Shown: in pieces, positions 2,598 through 57,900 of the stretch
Position numbering within the stretch: the first letter of the stretch is position 1
Layout of the letters: each line of letters opens with the position of its first letter
NCBI GenBank assembly: GCA_015069165.1
Contig: SVJD01000003.1
Coordinates: forward strand, 1 to 64,000
Length of the DNA stretch: 64,000 bases
Origin: Oscillospiraceae bacterium
GTDB lineage: Bacteria > Bacillota > Clostridia > UBA1212 > UBA1255
Direction of reading: 5' to 3'
The notes under the pieces: generated by a model
What the model saw: only the letters and a program-made list of their open reading frames with translations
Database searches by the model: none
Told to the model about the DNA's origin: nothing
Made by a program: the position numbers and the translations under genes

Positions 2598-2697
2598 TAC
2601 AACAACGCAGAATGTGCACTTTACGCACATTATAAAACAGTTCACTTTTTTCACACTGCAAAAATTGCCCGTGTTAAAGCAAAATTAACTCAATCAA
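2598..2697 (+). repeat. imperfect direct repeat, left copy, flanking the ATPase gene
   Basis: TACAACAACGCAGAATGTGCACTTTACGCACATTATAAA... aligns to 4243-4340; contains the hairpin ATGTGC-actttac-GCACAT. Confidence 0.7.
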
Positions 2698-4097
2698 TAC
2701 ATATCCTCTAAGGCAATCAATTTCACTTCGCCTTTTTTCTCTAATGCCTTTAGACCTTCTGTAAATCCACCTTTAGAGAAAATATAATAATGATATGTTT
2801 TTCCTTTTCCAAATACAGCAGCATATTTTTTCAGTAGCTCGAATTCGTCTACACCGATTGCTTCGTTTCTAAATTTACATGAACCTATCAAATATTCATT
2901 TTTATTGTCAGTACTACCTACTAAATCAATCTGAACTTGCTTTTTTTCTACGGAATCTGTTCCCCACCATTGTCCGATATCTACTATTTGAAAACCAAGT
3001 TCGTCTGCATAATAAAGCAAATAATCACTACACATTTTTTCAAAAATCAGACCCATATAGTCATTTAGACATGCTTTCACTGCTTTATCATATATCTTTT
3101 CCATTCTACCTGATGCAATCGGTGTCATGTTATTAGGCACAAATCTATACCAAAATCTAAAGAATGGGTCTGCAATGCTATATATGGTTTTCTTTCCCGG
3201 CTTTTCAGTCATAGGTGTTTCCTTCTTCAGAATACCTAAATTGATAAGCACACTCAAATACTTCGAGCACGGTCCGGTTTCAATTCCGGTTTTAGTGCTA
3301 ATCTCATTCATATGAGAAGCACCTTCTGCTATTGCAGTAATTACGGAATTATATACGGCTGGTTCTCTAAGCTCCTGTTTCAACAAATTTGCCGGCTCTT
3401 CAAACAAATATGCCGATCGATCAAAGAAGTTTTCTAACAATGCATTATCAAAATCACCTTGTACATTCAGCTTATTAATATAGTGCGGGATTCCGCCTGT
3501 TACTCCATAAACAAATGCATTTGTTACATTATCCAATTCCGGATTAAAAACCGCTGTTTCTTTATATGTGAGAGGTTCTATCTTAAACTGCCCTGTTCTT
3601 CTTCCATAAAGCGGACTTTGATAACCGAGCACCTGATTTTCCATAAAACTCATAGACGAACCACATAAAATCAAAAACAACTTACTGTCTTTCCAAGTAT
3701 GGTCAATCAAATGTTGTATCCTTGAAGAAATAGATGGATATGACTTAGCTAAATATGGATATTCATCAATAACAAATACAATTCTCTCATTCTCTGCCAA
3801 TCGTGTAATTTCATTCAACGCACTATCAAACGAATTGTATTCAGGAGCGTCTGTCGCATCCGGTTGATTATACGTATAGATGGCTCTGGAAAGAGTCTTT
3901 AAGTTATCTTTTGCGGTTCCCTCCAAAAGAGCCGAAAAAAACACTGTAGGCTTACCTTTACAAAATTCATTTATTATTGTTGTCTTACCCACACGACGTC
4001 TTCCATAAATAACAATACATTCAAAATTCCCGGCGTCATATCTTTTATTTAATTTACGAAGCTCTTCATTTCTACAATAAAACATAATTCCCTCCAA
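2694..4097 (-). CDS. ATP-binding protein, archaeal-ATPase/DUF234 type
   Basis: YGRRRVGKTTIINEF Walker A, FVIDEYPYLA Walker B, CGSSMSFME; C-terminal DUF234-like nuclease-fold region (DLVGSTDNKNEYLIGSCKF). Confidence 0.85.
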   Translation of the reverse strand: MEGIMFYCRNEELRKLNKRYDAGNFECIVIYGRRRVGKTTIINEFCKGKPTVFFSALLEGTAKDNLKTLSRAIYTYNQPDATDAPEYNSFDSALNEITRLAENERIVFVIDEYPYLAKSYPSISSRIQHLIDHTWKDSKLFLILCGSSMSFMENQVLGYQSPLYGRRTGQFKIEPLTYKETAVFNPELDNVTNAFVYGVTGGIPHYINKLNVQGDFDNALLENFFDRSAYLFEEPANLLKQELREPAVYNSVITAIAEGASHMNEISTKTGIETGPCSKYLSVLINLGILKKETPMTEKPGKKTIYSIADPFFRFWYRFVPNNMTPIASGRMEKIYDKAVKACLNDYMGLIFEKMCSDYLLYYADELGFQIVDIGQWWGTDSVEKKQVQIDLVGSTDNKNEYLIGSCKFRNEAIGVDEFELLKKYAAVFGKGKTYHYYIFSKGGFTEGLKALEKKGEVKLIALEDMY

Positions 4098-50865: not shown

Positions 50866-52149
50866 TTATTTACACATTCTGTTAGCAACTTCTTCCGCAA
50901 CTTCCTCAAGCATTCCGTGGTCTTTTGTGAAGTTAAAAATCGTATATCTCGGTCTTATTTTGTATCCGTTTTTAAGACTGGCTCTGAAAACTTCCTCAGA
51001 AACGCCCAATTCCGCCGGTGTAAGCGCACTGCCCGCTTTAGCGTAAATTTCACGAAGGAAATCAGGCTTTGGCGCTTTTACATCCGCAACAACTTCGAAA
51101 CGCTTACTCATTATGTCATACACTTCTGCAGAAGCAATCGAGGCAAGCCCTACGGAATTGCCGTGAAGCGGGTGCGGAATTCCTTTTTCCACTGCATCTA
51201 ATTCCCAATAATGGGAAAGATGGTGCTCACTTCCCGAGGCAGGTCTTGTGTAACCTGTAATTCCCATAGAAATACCTGTGAGTATCAAAGCTTCGTTCAT
51301 TCTCTCTATAGCGGATTCTTCCCTTTTAAAATAAGCTTCTGTATTATCTACGCAAATATTTACGGCGTTTTCAACAAGTTTTGCCGTAATTTCGCAGTAA
51401 TGCTCGTCATTCATGGCTTTTGTGAGCCGCCAGTCGGAAAGTGCTGTGTATTTTCCAACAATATCACCGTATCCCGCTCTGAAAAGCTCATCGGGAGCTG
51501 TCTGCATGATTTTTGTGTCTGCTACAATGCAAGTATGATAATGTGCGTTGTATGTTATTTTGTGTCCGTCAATTACAAAAGCCGCATTCATTGAAGCGTA
51601 ACCATCCATAGACGGAGCCGTGCCTACAACAATTGACTTTCTGCCTGTTTTATATGAAACCAATTTGGTAATATCGCTTATTACGCCGCTGCCCACGCCA
51701 ATCATAAATCCTATTTCGTCTGTAAGATTTACAAGAACAGTACCAAGTGCGTGTTCATTAGGCACAAGCATGTGGTAATTTTTTGTTTCCAATTTTATGA
51801 TTTTTGTTTTATATCCAGCATTTTCCAATACGGAAACTGTTTTCTCGCCGCCGACTTTCCATGTATTGTCATCACAAATCACAAGAATGGTTTTATTCTT
51901 ATTCTCAGGATAATGTTCTAATATTTCAGGAAGTCTTTCAACTGCACCGCTGCCTGACAAAAGGTGTTTCATATCTACACTGTGATGTTTACCGCACACA
52001 CAGTCAAAAGAATAACCGGGCATTTCCTCAATACCCATGTGCAATATTTTTTTTGCATTAGCACAAAATTCATCGGTTAATAAAGAAGGATCTACGGGAA
52101 CGGATTTTTGCCATTCCAAAACAACTTTTTCTTCTTTTTGTTTTTCCAT
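50866..52149 (-). CDS. sn-glycerol-1-phosphate dehydrogenase, AraM/EgsA-like
   Basis: MIGVGSGVISDITKLVSYKTGRKSIVVGTAPSMDGYAS, SGSEHHLSHYWE. Confidence 0.85.
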   Translation of the reverse strand: MEKQKEEKVVLEWQKSVPVDPSLLTDEFCANAKKILHMGIEEMPGYSFDCVCGKHHSVDMKHLLSGSGAVERLPEILEHYPENKNKTILVICDDNTWKVGGEKTVSVLENAGYKTKIIKLETKNYHMLVPNEHALGTVLVNLTDEIGFMIGVGSGVISDITKLVSYKTGRKSIVVGTAPSMDGYASMNAAFVIDGHKITYNAHYHTCIVADTKIMQTAPDELFRAGYGDIVGKYTALSDWRLTKAMNDEHYCEITAKLVENAVNICVDNTEAYFKREESAIERMNEALILTGISMGITGYTRPASGSEHHLSHYWELDAVEKGIPHPLHGNSVGLASIASAEVYDIMSKRFEVVADVKAPKPDFLREIYAKAGSALTPAELGVSEEVFRASLKNGYKIRPRYTIFNFTKDHGMLEEVAEEVANRMCK

Positions 52150-52359: not shown

Positions 52360-53535
52360 TTAACACTGAACAACTTCAATTCCCTCAAAAGCCGCATTTT
52401 CCATTTCAAGGAAATCAGCTTTTGTTTCTTCTTCAAGCAACTCAGAAAGTGACGGTCTTGTTTTAGGATGTTTCGGTGTAAACACCGTACAGCAATCCTC
52501 ATAGGGCAAAATACTTGTATCAAATGTTCCTATTTTGCGCGCAATGGCAACAACTTCCATTTTATCCATTCCTATGAGCGGTCTGAAAACAGGAATATCT
52601 GCTGCATTATCCGTGCAATAAATAGCTTGCATTGTCTGGCTTGCAACCTGACCTACACTTTCCCCTGTTATCAACGCAGAGCAACCGCTTTTTCTTGCAA
52701 CTCTTTCAGCAATTCTCATCATTGATCTTCTCATAATTACCGTAGAAAGTTCTTCGCGGCACTTTTCGTCGATTGCCAACTGAATTTCCGTAAAAGGAAC
52801 AATAAACACTTTCATTCCGCCGCAATATCTGCCGACGATTTTAGCAAGCTCAAGCACCTTATCTTTTGCTCTTTCGCTGGTATAAGGATAGCTGTAAAAA
52901 TGCACAGCGCACAAACTAACGCCTCTTTTTGCAATCATATATCCTGCAACAGGGCTGTCTATTCCGCCGGAAATCAACAAACATCCTTTACCGTTAGAAC
53001 CCGTAGGCATTCCGCCGGGTGCTTCTATAATATCTGTATAAATGTATGTGCTTTCGCGCACTTCGATATACAAAATAAAATCGGGATTATTTACATCAAC
53101 TTTAAGTTTACCTCCGAAACTTTCCAACAAATCTCCGCCTATTTCAGCAGAAATTTGAGGCGACTTCATCGGGAAAGTTTTTAATCCTCTTTTTGTTTCG
53201 ATTTTAAATGTGTACTTATCTTTTCCCGTTGCCATTGCTTTTGCCGCAACTTCTTTTGCCAAAGCAGAAATGGAGTCATATTCTGAATTGGTGACATACG
53301 CAGGGCTTATTGATACAAGGCCGAAAACTCCCGAAAGCATCTCCATTGCTTTTTCAAATTGAAAATCGTCGCTCTCAGGCTCCACAAAATATCTTGACTG
53401 GGACCATCTTACTTTGCACGCACCGCAATCAGAAAGGGCCGCTTTCATATTTCTTGCCAATCTCTGCTCAAATGTACATCTATTGAGTCCTTTTAATGCT
53501 ATTTCGCCGATTCTTGCTAATATAATTCTTTCCAT
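52360..53535 (-). CDS. thiI: tRNA 4-thiouridine synthase
   Basis: GCLLISGGIDSPVAGYMIAKRGVSLCAVHFYSYPYTSERAKDKV, THUMP-like N-terminus. Confidence 0.95.
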   Translation of the reverse strand: MERIILARIGEIALKGLNRCTFEQRLARNMKAALSDCGACKVRWSQSRYFVEPESDDFQFEKAMEMLSGVFGLVSISPAYVTNSEYDSISALAKEVAAKAMATGKDKYTFKIETKRGLKTFPMKSPQISAEIGGDLLESFGGKLKVDVNNPDFILYIEVRESTYIYTDIIEAPGGMPTGSNGKGCLLISGGIDSPVAGYMIAKRGVSLCAVHFYSYPYTSERAKDKVLELAKIVGRYCGGMKVFIVPFTEIQLAIDEKCREELSTVIMRRSMMRIAERVARKSGCSALITGESVGQVASQTMQAIYCTDNAADIPVFRPLIGMDKMEVVAIARKIGTFDTSILPYEDCCTVFTPKHPKTRPSLSELLEEETKADFLEMENAAFEGIEVVQC

Positions 53536-53536
53536 T

Positions 53537-55417
53537 TTACCTCGATCCTTTTCTTCGTCCGTAAAGCTTTTTAACTTCAGCGCAGATTACTTTTGCAGCA
53601 AATTCTGCTTGTTCTTTTGTGTTTTGGTACGTAAAACTTATTCTTATCGCACCGTCTATCACGTTATTGTTGTACCCCATTGCTGTCAGTGTGGGGCTTC
53701 TGTCTTTTTTATGAGATGAGCACGCCGAGCCAACGGAAATATACACGCCTTTTTGCTCCACGCTGTGTTGAATCACTTCTGCTCTAAGTCCCGGAAATGC
53801 CACATTTAATACATACGGGCAAGTGTCTTCGCTCGAAATTATAACACACGCTCTTATTTCTTCTTGAAGTGTTTGTCTGAAAATATTATTTAATTCTCTG
53901 ACAGTATTTTCATTTTCTGCCAAATTGTGGCAAGCTTTTTCTGCTATCAACGCAAAACCTGCTATAGCCGGCAAATTTTCCGTACCTGAGCGCAAACCTT
54001 TTTCCTGACCGCCTCCGCAAAGCAGGGGCGCGATTCTGATTCCGCTCTTAATGTATAAGAAGCCTACACCTCTGGGACCGTGTATTTTGTGTGCGCTGGT
54101 GCTTATCATATCAACTCCCAGCTCTTTAATACGAACGGGGATTTTGCCGTAACTTTGCACGCAGTCGGAATGCACAATAACATTAGGATTTATTGTTCTC
54201 GCTATTGCCGAAATCTCTTTTAACGGCTGAATTGCGCCCGTTTCACTGTTTACGTGCATTACGGAAACTATTGCCGTATCAGCTGTTATTGCGCCTTTCA
54301 AAGCGTCTAAATCCACAATTCCCATATTATTTACAGGTAAGCGTTCAACCTGATAACCGCTTTTTTCAAGAAAAGCAGCCGTTTCGCCTACGGACGGATG
54401 CTCTGTAGATGATATTAAAATTTTCTTTCCTGCTCTAGGATTAGCTTCTAAATATCCCCTTAATGCCCAGTTATTGCTTTCTGTGGCACAAGCTGTAAAA
54501 TAAATTTCTTTATCTGTTGCACCTATTGTTTCTGCAATTTTTTTACGAGCCTCTGTAAGTTTTCTCTCAGCTTCAAGTCCCATGTGATGAAGAGACGAAG
54601 GGTTGCCGTAAAGGAATTTTACAATATCGCACATTTCTTCCGTAACGCTGTCGTCTTGCCTTGTAGTTGCGCTGTTATCGAAATAATACGTTTGGCTCTT
54701 AATTTTTTCTTCTTGGTATATTTTATACAAATCGGGGCGCTTTTGCATAGTGCGTTTTTCTGCCGTCGCGACTTGCCATTTTTCTATTTCGTCGTGTTTG
54801 CCCGAAAGCAATATCTCGGGAATCTTTTTCCCCTCAATCTCTGCCGGGCGTGTATATTGCGGATATTCCAAAAGCAAACCGGTGTGGGATTCTTTTTCTG
54901 CTGAACCTTCTGCCAAAACGCCGGGAATAAGTCTTGCTATACAGTCTGCCACCGCCATAGCAGGTATTTCGCCGCCTGTCAGCACGAAATCTCCCAAAGA
55001 TACTTCTTCATCCACAAATTCTTCCAATACTCTCTCGTCTACACCTTCATAATGTCCGCAGAGTATCATTATGTGTTCTTTTTGCACGAGTTGTTGTGCT
55101 TTTTTTTGATTAAAGGGTTTACCTTGCGGCGACATATATATTACGTATGGTTTTTCTGAATTGTCGCCTTGCGCAGATGCTTCTGCTGAAAGTGCACGAA
55201 TACAATCTGCTATAGGTTGATATGCCATAACCAAGCCCGGGCCGCCGCTGTACGGATAATCGTCAACTTTACCCTGCTTGTTGGTCGTATACTTTCTGAT
55301 TTGATGACAGTTAAGAGTTAAAAGTCCCTTTGAAACTGCTCTTGCTATTATGCTTTCTTGAAACGCAGCTCCCACCATATCGGGAAAAAGCGTCAAAATG
55401 TCAATTTTATTAGTCAC
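53537..55417 (-). CDS. fusion: tRNA (guanine-N1-)-methyltransferase TrmD + cysteine desulfurase (NifS/IscS-like)
   Basis: TrmD motifs (ILTLFPDM, DDYPYSGGPGLVM, LCGHYEGVDERV, LGDFVLTGGE) followed in frame by YYFDNSATT...STSAHKIHGPRGVGFLY...SVGSACSS. Confidence 0.93.
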   Translation of the reverse strand: MTNKIDILTLFPDMVGAAFQESIIARAVSKGLLTLNCHQIRKYTTNKQGKVDDYPYSGGPGLVMAYQPIADCIRALSAEASAQGDNSEKPYVIYMSPQGKPFNQKKAQQLVQKEHIMILCGHYEGVDERVLEEFVDEEVSLGDFVLTGGEIPAMAVADCIARLIPGVLAEGSAEKESHTGLLLEYPQYTRPAEIEGKKIPEILLSGKHDEIEKWQVATAEKRTMQKRPDLYKIYQEEKIKSQTYYFDNSATTRQDDSVTEEMCDIVKFLYGNPSSLHHMGLEAERKLTEARKKIAETIGATDKEIYFTACATESNNWALRGYLEANPRAGKKILISSTEHPSVGETAAFLEKSGYQVERLPVNNMGIVDLDALKGAITADTAIVSVMHVNSETGAIQPLKEISAIARTINPNVIVHSDCVQSYGKIPVRIKELGVDMISTSAHKIHGPRGVGFLYIKSGIRIAPLLCGGGQEKGLRSGTENLPAIAGFALIAEKACHNLAENENTVRELNNIFRQTLQEEIRACVIISSEDTCPYVLNVAFPGLRAEVIQHSVEQKGVYISVGSACSSHKKDRSPTLTAMGYNNNVIDGAIRISFTYQNTKEQAEFAAKVICAEVKKLYGRRKGSR

Positions 55418-55418
55418 G

Positions 55419-55994
55419 TTAATCTTCGCCTTCGATTTCTTGCGTGTTTGATTCGTAGATTTCTCTGAGTCCGGGTATTAAATTTACCGTAATCTCACCT
55501 TTTTCGATATCTACGTCTTTAATAACTTCACCGATTGCCGGCAACCACATTGATTTTTTTGAATCTGAATCTTTTGGCGTTACTTCGTATATATCATTAG
55601 CGCCTGTGAATTGAACTTCAGTTAATGTACCGAGAACTTCCCCGTCTTGTGTTTTTACCGTACAACCAACCAAATCACCTACAAAATATGAATCCTTAGG
55701 TAATTTAACTGCTTTTTCTCTCGGTATTTCTAAAAACATACCACGGAATTTCTCTGCTTTATCTCTGTCATCTACTCCGCAAAGCTTAAGCAATACTACA
55801 TTTCCCGCCGGTGTTGCGGATAAAACTTTATAATTAGTGACCTCGGCTCCTTTACGCCCGCCCCTTTTAGGTACAACATCTACCTCTGTCAGAGAGCAAA
55901 AACGAATGGGATTATCGGTCAAAGGCAACACCTTAAGTGCGCCCTTGACTCCATGAACACTAACAATTTCACCGATTCTTATTCTTTCCAGCAA
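55419..55994 (-). CDS. rimM: 16S rRNA processing protein RimM
   Basis: IGEIVSVHGVKGALKVLPLTDNPIRF; PRC-barrel-like C-terminus. Confidence 0.93.
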   Translation of the reverse strand: MLERIRIGEIVSVHGVKGALKVLPLTDNPIRFCSLTEVDVVPKRGGRKGAEVTNYKVLSATPAGNVVLLKLCGVDDRDKAEKFRGMFLEIPREKAVKLPKDSYFVGDLVGCTVKTQDGEVLGTLTEVQFTGANDIYEVTPKDSDSKKSMWLPAIGEVIKDVDIEKGEITVNLIPGLREIYESNTQEIEGED

Positions 55995-56019: not shown

Positions 56020-56247
56020 TTATACAATATCAACAAAAACCATTTTCGGCATATTGCGCGAAGCTGCCTTTGTTACTGTACGAAGTGATTTTGCAATCTT
56101 TCCTTCTCTTCCTATAACTTGGCCTTTATCTTCTTCTGCAACCGTAACCTTATACGTAATACTCTTTTCAGTTTCTTCTTCCTCGACAACTACTTGCTCG
56201 GGATGATCAACCAATTGACGTACTACAATTTCCAAGAAATCTTTCAT
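56020..56247 (-). CDS. khpA: KH-domain RNA-binding protein KhpA (YlqC)
   Basis: VAEEDKGQVIGREGKIAKSLRTVTKAA. Confidence 0.92.
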   Translation of the reverse strand: MKDFLEIVVRQLVDHPEQVVVEEEETEKSITYKVTVAEEDKGQVIGREGKIAKSLRTVTKAASRNMPKMVFVDIV

Positions 56248-56282: not shown

Positions 56283-56522
56283 TTAAGCTTCTTGAGCTTT
56301 CTTTATCAAAGCTTTAACGGTATCTGTAGGCTGTGCGCCGTTTTTAATCCAGTAATTTGCACGCTCGATATCAATTTTAATTTCAGCGGGATCTACCAAG
56401 GGATTGTATGTTCCGATTTCTTCGATAAATCTGCCATCTCTTGCGTATTTAGATTCTGCAACTACTACTCTGTAAAAAGGTGCTTTCTTTGCGCCGATTC
56501 TTCTAAGTCTGATTTTTACCAT
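56283..56522 (-). CDS. rpsP: 30S ribosomal protein S16
   Basis: [42 protein letters not shown]. Confidence 0.97.
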
Positions 56523-56553: not shown

Positions 56554-57900
56554 TTACATAAAAATATTTGGCATCTTGCCGCCGAACATTTTTCTGCCAA
56601 TACCTTTTCCGCCTTTGCCGCCAAGTTTTTTCATCATGACGCGCATATCAGCAAATTGCTTCATAAGTCTGTTTATATCTTGAACCGTTGTACCGCTGCC
56701 GGCAGCAATTCTTTTTCTTCTGCTGGCATCAAGTATATCGGGATTTCTGCGTTCTTTTTTTGTCATTGATCTGATGATAGCTTCAACTCTCACCATTTGT
56801 TTTTCGTCAATGTCGTCTTCGTTAATCTGGCCCACACCGGGAAGAAGCTTTAACAAGCCACCTATGCCGCCCATCTTTTTTATCTGTTGAAGCTGTTCAA
56901 GAAAATCATCCAGAGTAAATGTCTGTGTCATAATTTTCTTTTCCAAATCTTGGGCTTGCTTCTCGTCGTACATCTCAACGGCTTTATCTATAAGAGTAAG
57001 CACGTCGCCCATACCGAGAATTCTGTCTGCCATTCTTTTGGGATAAAATATCTCAAAATCGTTTATCTTTTCTCCGCTTGAAGCAAATTTTACAGGTTTT
57101 CCTGTTATTGCTCGTACGGAAAGTGCCGCACCGCCGCGAGTATCACTGTCTAATTTTGAAAGTATGATACCTGTTACATCAAGTCGGTCATTAAATGTTT
57201 GTGCAACATTTGCAGCTTCCTGACCTGTCATAGCATCTATTACAAGCATAATCTCTGCCGGATTAACTTCTGCTTTAATCTCGTCAAGCTCATCCATAAG
57301 ATCATCGTCAATTTGAAGTCGACCTGCCGTATCGACGATAACCACGTCATGCATATTTCTTATTGCATATTTAATAGCATTTTTCGCAATTGTTGCTGCT
57401 TTTACTTGTGAGCCTTCCTCATAAACGGGAATATCAATCTGCTTTCCGAGAACTTGGAGCTGTGTGATAGCTGCCGGTCTGTATATATCGCAGGCTACCA
57501 TCATAGGTTTTCTGCCTTGTTTTCTCAAATGTGCCGCAAGTTTAGCTGTTGCAGTCGTTTTACCTGTACCTTGAAGACCTACCATCATAACTACATTAGG
57601 CGGTGTCTTTGAAAGGTCGAGTTTATAGTCCTCCGCACCCAAAAGCTCTGTAAGCTCGTCATCAACGATTTTTACTATTTGCTGTCCGGGAGACAAACTC
57701 TCAAGAACTTCCTGACCTACTGCCTTTTCGGAAACTTTTGCAATAAAGTCTTTTACAACTTTATAGTTTACATCTGCTTCCAAAAGTGCCAAACGAATCT
57801 CGCGCATAAAGTCTTTAACGTCTTTTTCTGTAACGCGTGTTTGTCCTTTTAATTTTTTTATTGTAGCTTGCAGCTTTGCGGATAAGCTTTCAAATGCCAT
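56554..57900 (-). CDS. ffh: signal recognition particle protein
   Basis: MVGLQGTGKTTATAKLAAHLRKQGRKPMMVACDIYRPAA, DTAGRLQIDDDLMDEL, Met-rich M domain. Confidence 0.97.
   Translation of the reverse strand: MAFESLSAKLQATIKKLKGQTRVTEKDVKDFMREIRLALLEADVNYKVVKDFIAKVSEKAVGQEVLESLSPGQQIVKIVDDELTELLGAEDYKLDLSKTPPNVVMMVGLQGTGKTTATAKLAAHLRKQGRKPMMVACDIYRPAAITQLQVLGKQIDIPVYEEGSQVKAATIAKNAIKYAIRNMHDVVIVDTAGRLQIDDDLMDELDEIKAEVNPAEIMLVIDAMTGQEAANVAQTFNDRLDVTGIILSKLDSDTRGGAALSVRAITGKPVKFASSGEKINDFEIFYPKRMADRILGMGDVLTLIDKAVEMYDEKQAQDLEKKIMTQTFTLDDFLEQLQQIKKMGGIGGLLKLLPGVGQINEDDIDEKQMVRVEAIIRSMTKKERRNPDILDASRRKRIAAGSGTTVQDINRLMKQFADMRVMMKKLGGKGGKGIGRKMFGGKMPNIFM

Follow-up and report, generated by a model that had tools for sequence, protein, structure and literature searches.

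A conserved in-frame fusion of TrmD with a thiI-linked cysteine desulfurase in an order of Clostridia

Does the open reading frame at 53537-55417 encode one protein in which a tRNA methyltransferase passes into a cysteine desulfurase and, if so, what might such a protein do? Within the stretch of DNA analyzed (64,000 nucleotides, hereafter the window), a single frame of 626 codons holds both domains as defined by Pfam, tRNA_m1G_MT (PF01746, residues 26-228, 192 bits) followed by Aminotran_5 (PF00266, residues 245-604, 250 bits). This bears out the initial annotation, in which a complete TrmD was read in frame into a complete NifS/IscS-like enzyme. The junction in the window reads ...KRPDLYKIYQEEKIKSQ-T-YYFDNSATT..., at about 54,690, and the segment around KIKSQTYYFDNSATTR spans the passage from TrmD to desulfurase. 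It had also been noted that no Met is available there for an independent start. In the window frame, ATG, GTG and TTG are indeed absent from the 16 codons upstream of DNSATT, and the nearest in-frame candidates, a TTG at -17 and an ATG at -23, both lie within the conserved TrmD C-terminus. The region 53537-55417 is a genuine single-frame TrmD-desulfurase fusion. No paper describing such a protein was found in the open-access literature, and the fusion is a real, conserved and apparently undescribed join of two known enzymes. Its parts and the neighboring genes are listed in Table 1.

Table 1. Features of the fusion gene and its operon, in window coordinates
Feature	Positions	Strand	Details and basis
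trmD::nifZ fusion gene	53537..55417	-	626 aa, GTG start, TAA stop
TrmD (tRNA m1G37 methyltransferase) part, residues 1-235 (approximate)	54713..55417	-	Pfam/NCBIfam match, motifs
Linker, residues 236-243 (EEKIKSQT)	54689..54712	-	Alignment and structure model
Group I cysteine desulfurase (NifZ-type) part, residues 244-626 (start approximate)	53540..54688	-	Pfam/NCBIfam, structure search, tree
Cys566, putative persulfide cysteine in VGSACSS	53720..53722	-	Invariant in 24/24
Lys444, putative PLP lysine in SAHKIHGP	54086..54088	-	Invariant in 24/24
thiI (tRNA U8 4-thiouridine synthase), 391 aa, without rhodanese domain	52360..53535	-	Pfam/NCBIfam, adjacency in relatives
rimM, directly upstream of the fusion	55419..55994	-	
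KH-domain RNA-binding protein (khpA-like)	56020..56247	-	
rpsP (ribosomal protein S16)	56283..56522	-	
ffh (signal recognition particle protein)	56554..57900	-	

A search of related genomes recovers the fusion, in one frame and with no internal stops, in families f1, f3, f4 and f6 of the order, from 27 of 31 genomes examined. All fused copies align at the junction as KRPDLYxxY-(linker)-Y(F/L)DNSATT. Most of the genomes are multi-contig drafts, the publicly named ones being metagenome assemblies; in G012 and G026 a contig end truncates the fused copy past the junction, and the copy of G009 is truncated at its start. The two publicly named fused loci are DBVV01000070.1 (L032, 'Mageeibacillus sp. 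UBA1255') and SVJA01000014.1 (L033, 'Oscillospiraceae bacterium SIG423'). A chicken-gut genus has been placed in GTDB family UBA1255, order UBA1212 (PMC8035907), and the order that carries the fusion, a little-studied one of gut- and rumen-type Clostridia, is probably UBA1212 as named in GTDB R95.

The exceptions fall into three kinds. Two genomes of family f5 (G019 and G021) keep trmD and nifS as separate genes with a 4-nt overlap (ATGA) and the gene order trmD-desulfurase-thiI. To illustrate, locus L030 of this family has, on the minus strand, trmD at 2634-3341, nifS at 1489-2637 and thiI 11 nt further. In the family f2 genome G016, trmD is on a different contig and the desulfurase-thiI pair is present. 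G029, which is 69% complete, returned neither a fusion match nor a full-length ThiI; the fusion locus is probably missing from that assembly. Beyond the order, we applied a threshold of E <= 1e-125, a score that no separate desulfurase reached. In a class-wide sample of 391 genomes only the 14 sampled members of the fused clade pass it and none of the 377 others do, and in a phylum-wide sample of 398 genomes the window's own genome passes alone, with none among the 397 others. One further candidate, the TrmD of UBA5905 (L094), at first seemed to enter a desulfurase; its frame stops after the TrmD tail, and it was rejected.

The TrmD half scores well above the NCBIfam cut-offs over residues 4-231/238, with 292 bits against NF000648 (cut-off 220) and 284 against TIGR00088 (cut-off 195). 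Its GDxVxTGGE motif and Arg162 are invariant across 24 fused sequences. Residue 176 is Glu in the fusion and Asp in some solved TrmDs; Glu is also present in the TrmD-Tm1570 protein of Calditerrivibrio, which has been shown to be active (PMC11187310). Since the fused genomes, the window's own included, yielded no further TrmD and the motifs are kept, the fusion, as what appears to be the cell's only TrmD, must serve the predicted m1G37 methylation.

The fusion gene sits closely packed between rimM, whose stop is followed after 1 nt by the GTG of the fusion, and thiI. The initial annotation was right in naming thiI as the next gene downstream, but not in placing it 2 nt away, as a single nucleotide separates the TAA (53537-53539) from the ATG at 53535. 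By Pfam, the window ThiI is the short form, with ferredoxin-like, THUMP and PP-loop domains and no rhodanese. The gene is just downstream in 27 of 27 fused genomes, in 2 cases on a contig that starts with the desulfurase C-terminus. A longer gap, of roughly 90-240 nt, is seen in genus g11 of family f4 (L020, L021, L023, L025 and L026), where the tight coupling with thiI is relaxed and the fusion kept. The usual gene after trmD is rplS. In the window genome rplS lies elsewhere, on contig C26 (L180, G000:C26:27530-27862), and thiI occupies its usual place in the operon. Adjoining thiI, at 50866-52149 of the window, is a 427-aa protein whose 212-bit match to NF002022, short of the cut-off, relates it to glycerol-1-phosphate dehydrogenase.

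The desulfurase half has the features of a group I (NifS/IscS) cysteine desulfurase, namely the fold, the PLP lysine, the His/Asp/Gln residues and a Cys in an SGSAC-type loop. His340, Asp418, Gln421, Lys444 and Cys566, to which functions are ascribed by analogy with known group I enzymes, are invariant in all 24 fused sequences. Among solved structures the best relative is 1ECX, a NifS-like protein that Foldseek matches at 40% identity with a TMt of 0.95. With 378.9 bits against NifS TIGR03402 (cut-off 530.75) and 298.3 against IscS TIGR02006 (cut-off 643.2), this half lies below the NCBIfam equivalog cut-offs, and by these profile scores it belongs to the superfamily group of NifS and IscS, outside both equivalogs. 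In a tree of 109 desulfurases the fused part clusters with thiI-linked enzymes from Clostridia and Bacilli. Among its nearest named free-standing relatives, 71 of 76 have thiI immediately downstream, and none of the 76 loci has trmD nearby. This grouping, together with a position right before a thiI that lacks the rhodanese domain, marks the half as NifZ-type. In Bacillus subtilis the nifZ gene lies just before thiI, and NifZ passes its sulfur straight to a ThiI that has no rhodanese (PMC5372745); because arrangement, domain content and phylogeny are the same here, ThiI is the most likely acceptor, and the desulfurase half, a putative donor, probably feeds sulfur to its neighbor. Two kinds of record met along the way deserve a cautious reading. 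A contig labeled Methanobrevibacter (L089, CACXWH010000033.1) carries a Bacillota-like desulfurase with no thiI nearby and is probably a binning error, and several short 'phage' records (H1-H5, such as OR849075.1 and PQ520060.1) carry bacterial-type cysteine desulfurases and are likely host DNA.

The explanation that we favor, with good confidence, is a bifunctional TrmD-NifZ protein that would be the only TrmD of the cell and a NifZ-type donor to the adjacent ThiI, and that would have a single origin from an overlapped operon. In such a protein the N-terminal part would methylate N1 of tRNA G37, and the C-terminal part would mobilize the sulfur of cysteine, forming a persulfide on Cys566, and pass it on to the rhodanese-less ThiI next door for the formation of s4U8. 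From the sequence comparisons we infer that each half is active, with ThiI as the main sulfur acceptor.

As to origin, a single branch (91/98) sets all 26 fused sequences apart in the tree built on the TrmD half, and in the 109-desulfurase tree the fused parts form one group (SH-aLRT 87) with the split f5 genes as their sister (99). The fusion appears to have arisen once, the branch support for this being good, if below maximal. The ATGA-overlapped trmD-desulfurase-thiI arrangement of f5 looks like the pre-fusion state, and the simplest reading would have a trmD-nifZ-thiI operon with ATGA translational coupling come first and a single fusion later. An ancestor with a rimM-trmD-nifZ-thiI operon, its trmD and nifZ overlapping by ATGA, would have undergone a small frame change that removed the trmD stop and left one fused gene. 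Strictly, the f5 genes might instead be a fused gene that was split again later.

Such an origin bears on whether the two activities are coupled at all. A neutral account, to which we give an even chance, holds that a stop was lost in the ATGA-overlapped operon, that the two enzymes still work independently, and that the harmless fusion persists because a stop, a ribosome-binding site and a start would all have to arise anew for its reversal. This account competes with functional coupling only, not with the fusion itself, and the confidence placed in it overlaps that in the bifunctional protein. The overlapping pair of the f5 sister family, which a small indel would turn into a fused gene, speaks for it. 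So does the linker, which is short and variable in sequence and in length (the same throughout f1, with one residue more in f4, fewer residues in f6 and 16 more in f3). TrmD and cysteine desulfurase are both homodimers in known structures. The AlphaFold2 model of the fusion (24 fused sequences; mean pLDDT 80.5, pTM 0.61) shows no confident packing of the TrmD domain against the desulfurase domain, again as neutrality would have it; its last TrmD helix (228-241) runs straight into the first desulfurase strand (244-246), so that the modeled connection is short. Against neutrality, no reversion was detected across four families, though a nonsense mutation and a start could split the gene. Persistence alone is nevertheless compatible with a neutral fusion, and so does not decide against it.

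Had the fusion been selected, TrmD might hold the tRNA while the NifZ half charges ThiI, in a TrmD-NifZ-ThiI complex that channels or coordinates m1G37 and s4U8, or the join might tie SAM methylation capacity to cysteine/sulfur status; we consider this scenario quite doubtful. A shared function in the broader sense, such as tethered sulfur delivery or the coordination of m1G37 with s4U8, is plausible, and the neutral reading is at least as likely as functional coupling. The initial proposal that one polypeptide links G37 methylation with sulfur supply for s4U8 is thus well supported as a genetic fact, given the conservation, the NifZ type and the adjacency of thiI, while the functional linkage is only plausible.

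A different destination for the sulfur, which we think somewhat unlikely, would make the desulfurase half a general sulfur hub for MnmA (s2U34) and Fe-S clusters, with ThiI not its main partner. Full or partial MnmA occurs in all fused genomes, and in 12 of the 27 (G000-G003, G005-G007, G009, G014, G018, G024 and G028), including that of the window, no second group I desulfurase was found, as expected of a hub; incomplete assemblies may explain part of these missing copies. Three class V aminotransferases are encoded in the window genome, namely the fusion, a 363-aa protein that is perhaps SerC, and a gene of a different family (TIGR01977, on contig C27) that is the sole other desulfurase-like gene there. 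Against a hub, the other 15 of the 27 fused genomes do carry a second group I copy, which lies beside mnmA in G004, G011 and G013, and both phylogeny and neighborhood group the desulfurase half with thiI-linked NifZ. In addition, all 29 readable MnmA sequences of the order (L142-L170) carry TPNPCxxC, with or without a second IscS-like gene; they belong to the CxxC-C type, a class for which an Fe-S cluster has been reported, and may draw sulfur differently (PMC8584467). The idea of a distinct three-Cys MnmA in the genomes without a second desulfurase was rejected, CxxC being present in every readable sequence.

It is improbable that the halves of the bifunctional protein are separated, by proteolysis of the linker or by a rare start (ATT or ACG near the junction), into two ordinary enzymes. 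Both codons occur near the junction in the window, but they are unconserved within the genus, where CTG, CTT or CAG replace ATT. No conserved ATG, GTG or TTG was found near the junction across the 27 fused genomes, and a conserved internal start was rejected. The linker is moreover in frame, and its pN/pS within the genus (0.08-0.25 over 17 linker codons) is close to that of both domains, which argues that it is translated in the fusion frame; by this measure it is under purifying selection. As for an indel at 54,690-54,710, the window genome, at 88.7% completeness, is a draft in 61 contigs, but a sequencing or assembly artefact has a virtually nil chance and is refuted by the same in-frame junction in 26 other, separately assembled genomes, whose fusion proteins are 51-85% identical to that of the window.

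Among known systems, the NifZ-ThiI pair of B. subtilis (PMC5372745) is alike in that the gene for a group I desulfurase directly precedes a thiI lacking the rhodanese part. The window desulfurase differs in having no start of its own, being the C-terminal half of a TrmD protein, and in lying within an ffh-rpsP-khpA-rimM operon. A second enzyme domain C-terminal to TrmD is also found in TrmD-Tm1570 (PF01746-PF09936; Calditerrivibrio nitroreducens, PDB 8B1N), an active homodimer (PMC11187310), from which it follows that a C-terminal extension of TrmD is tolerated. The partner there is a SPOUT methyltransferase of unknown target, whereas here it is a PLP-dependent cysteine desulfurase; by Pfam, the fusion has no PF09936 match and its C-terminal part is PF00266. 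Like the stand-alone TrmDs with structures from Staphylococcus aureus, Haemophilus influenzae and E. coli, the TrmD half is a full-length domain with conserved motifs and a score above the NCBIfam cut-off, but it is fused where those are normally single-domain proteins. TrmD is a universal bacterial enzyme, single-domain in the vast majority of organisms (PMC11187310), and here a whole lineage has it solely as a fusion to a sulfur-mobilizing PLP enzyme. The fusion offers a natural test of coordination between chemically different tRNA modifications at positions 8 and 37, and of the way in which a single chain can accommodate two homodimeric enzymes. NCBIfam cut-offs name the protein TrmD alone, the desulfurase part falling below all listed desulfurase cut-offs. 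The desulfurase would consequently escape annotation, and pathway reconstructions could score the sulfur donor of ThiI as absent.
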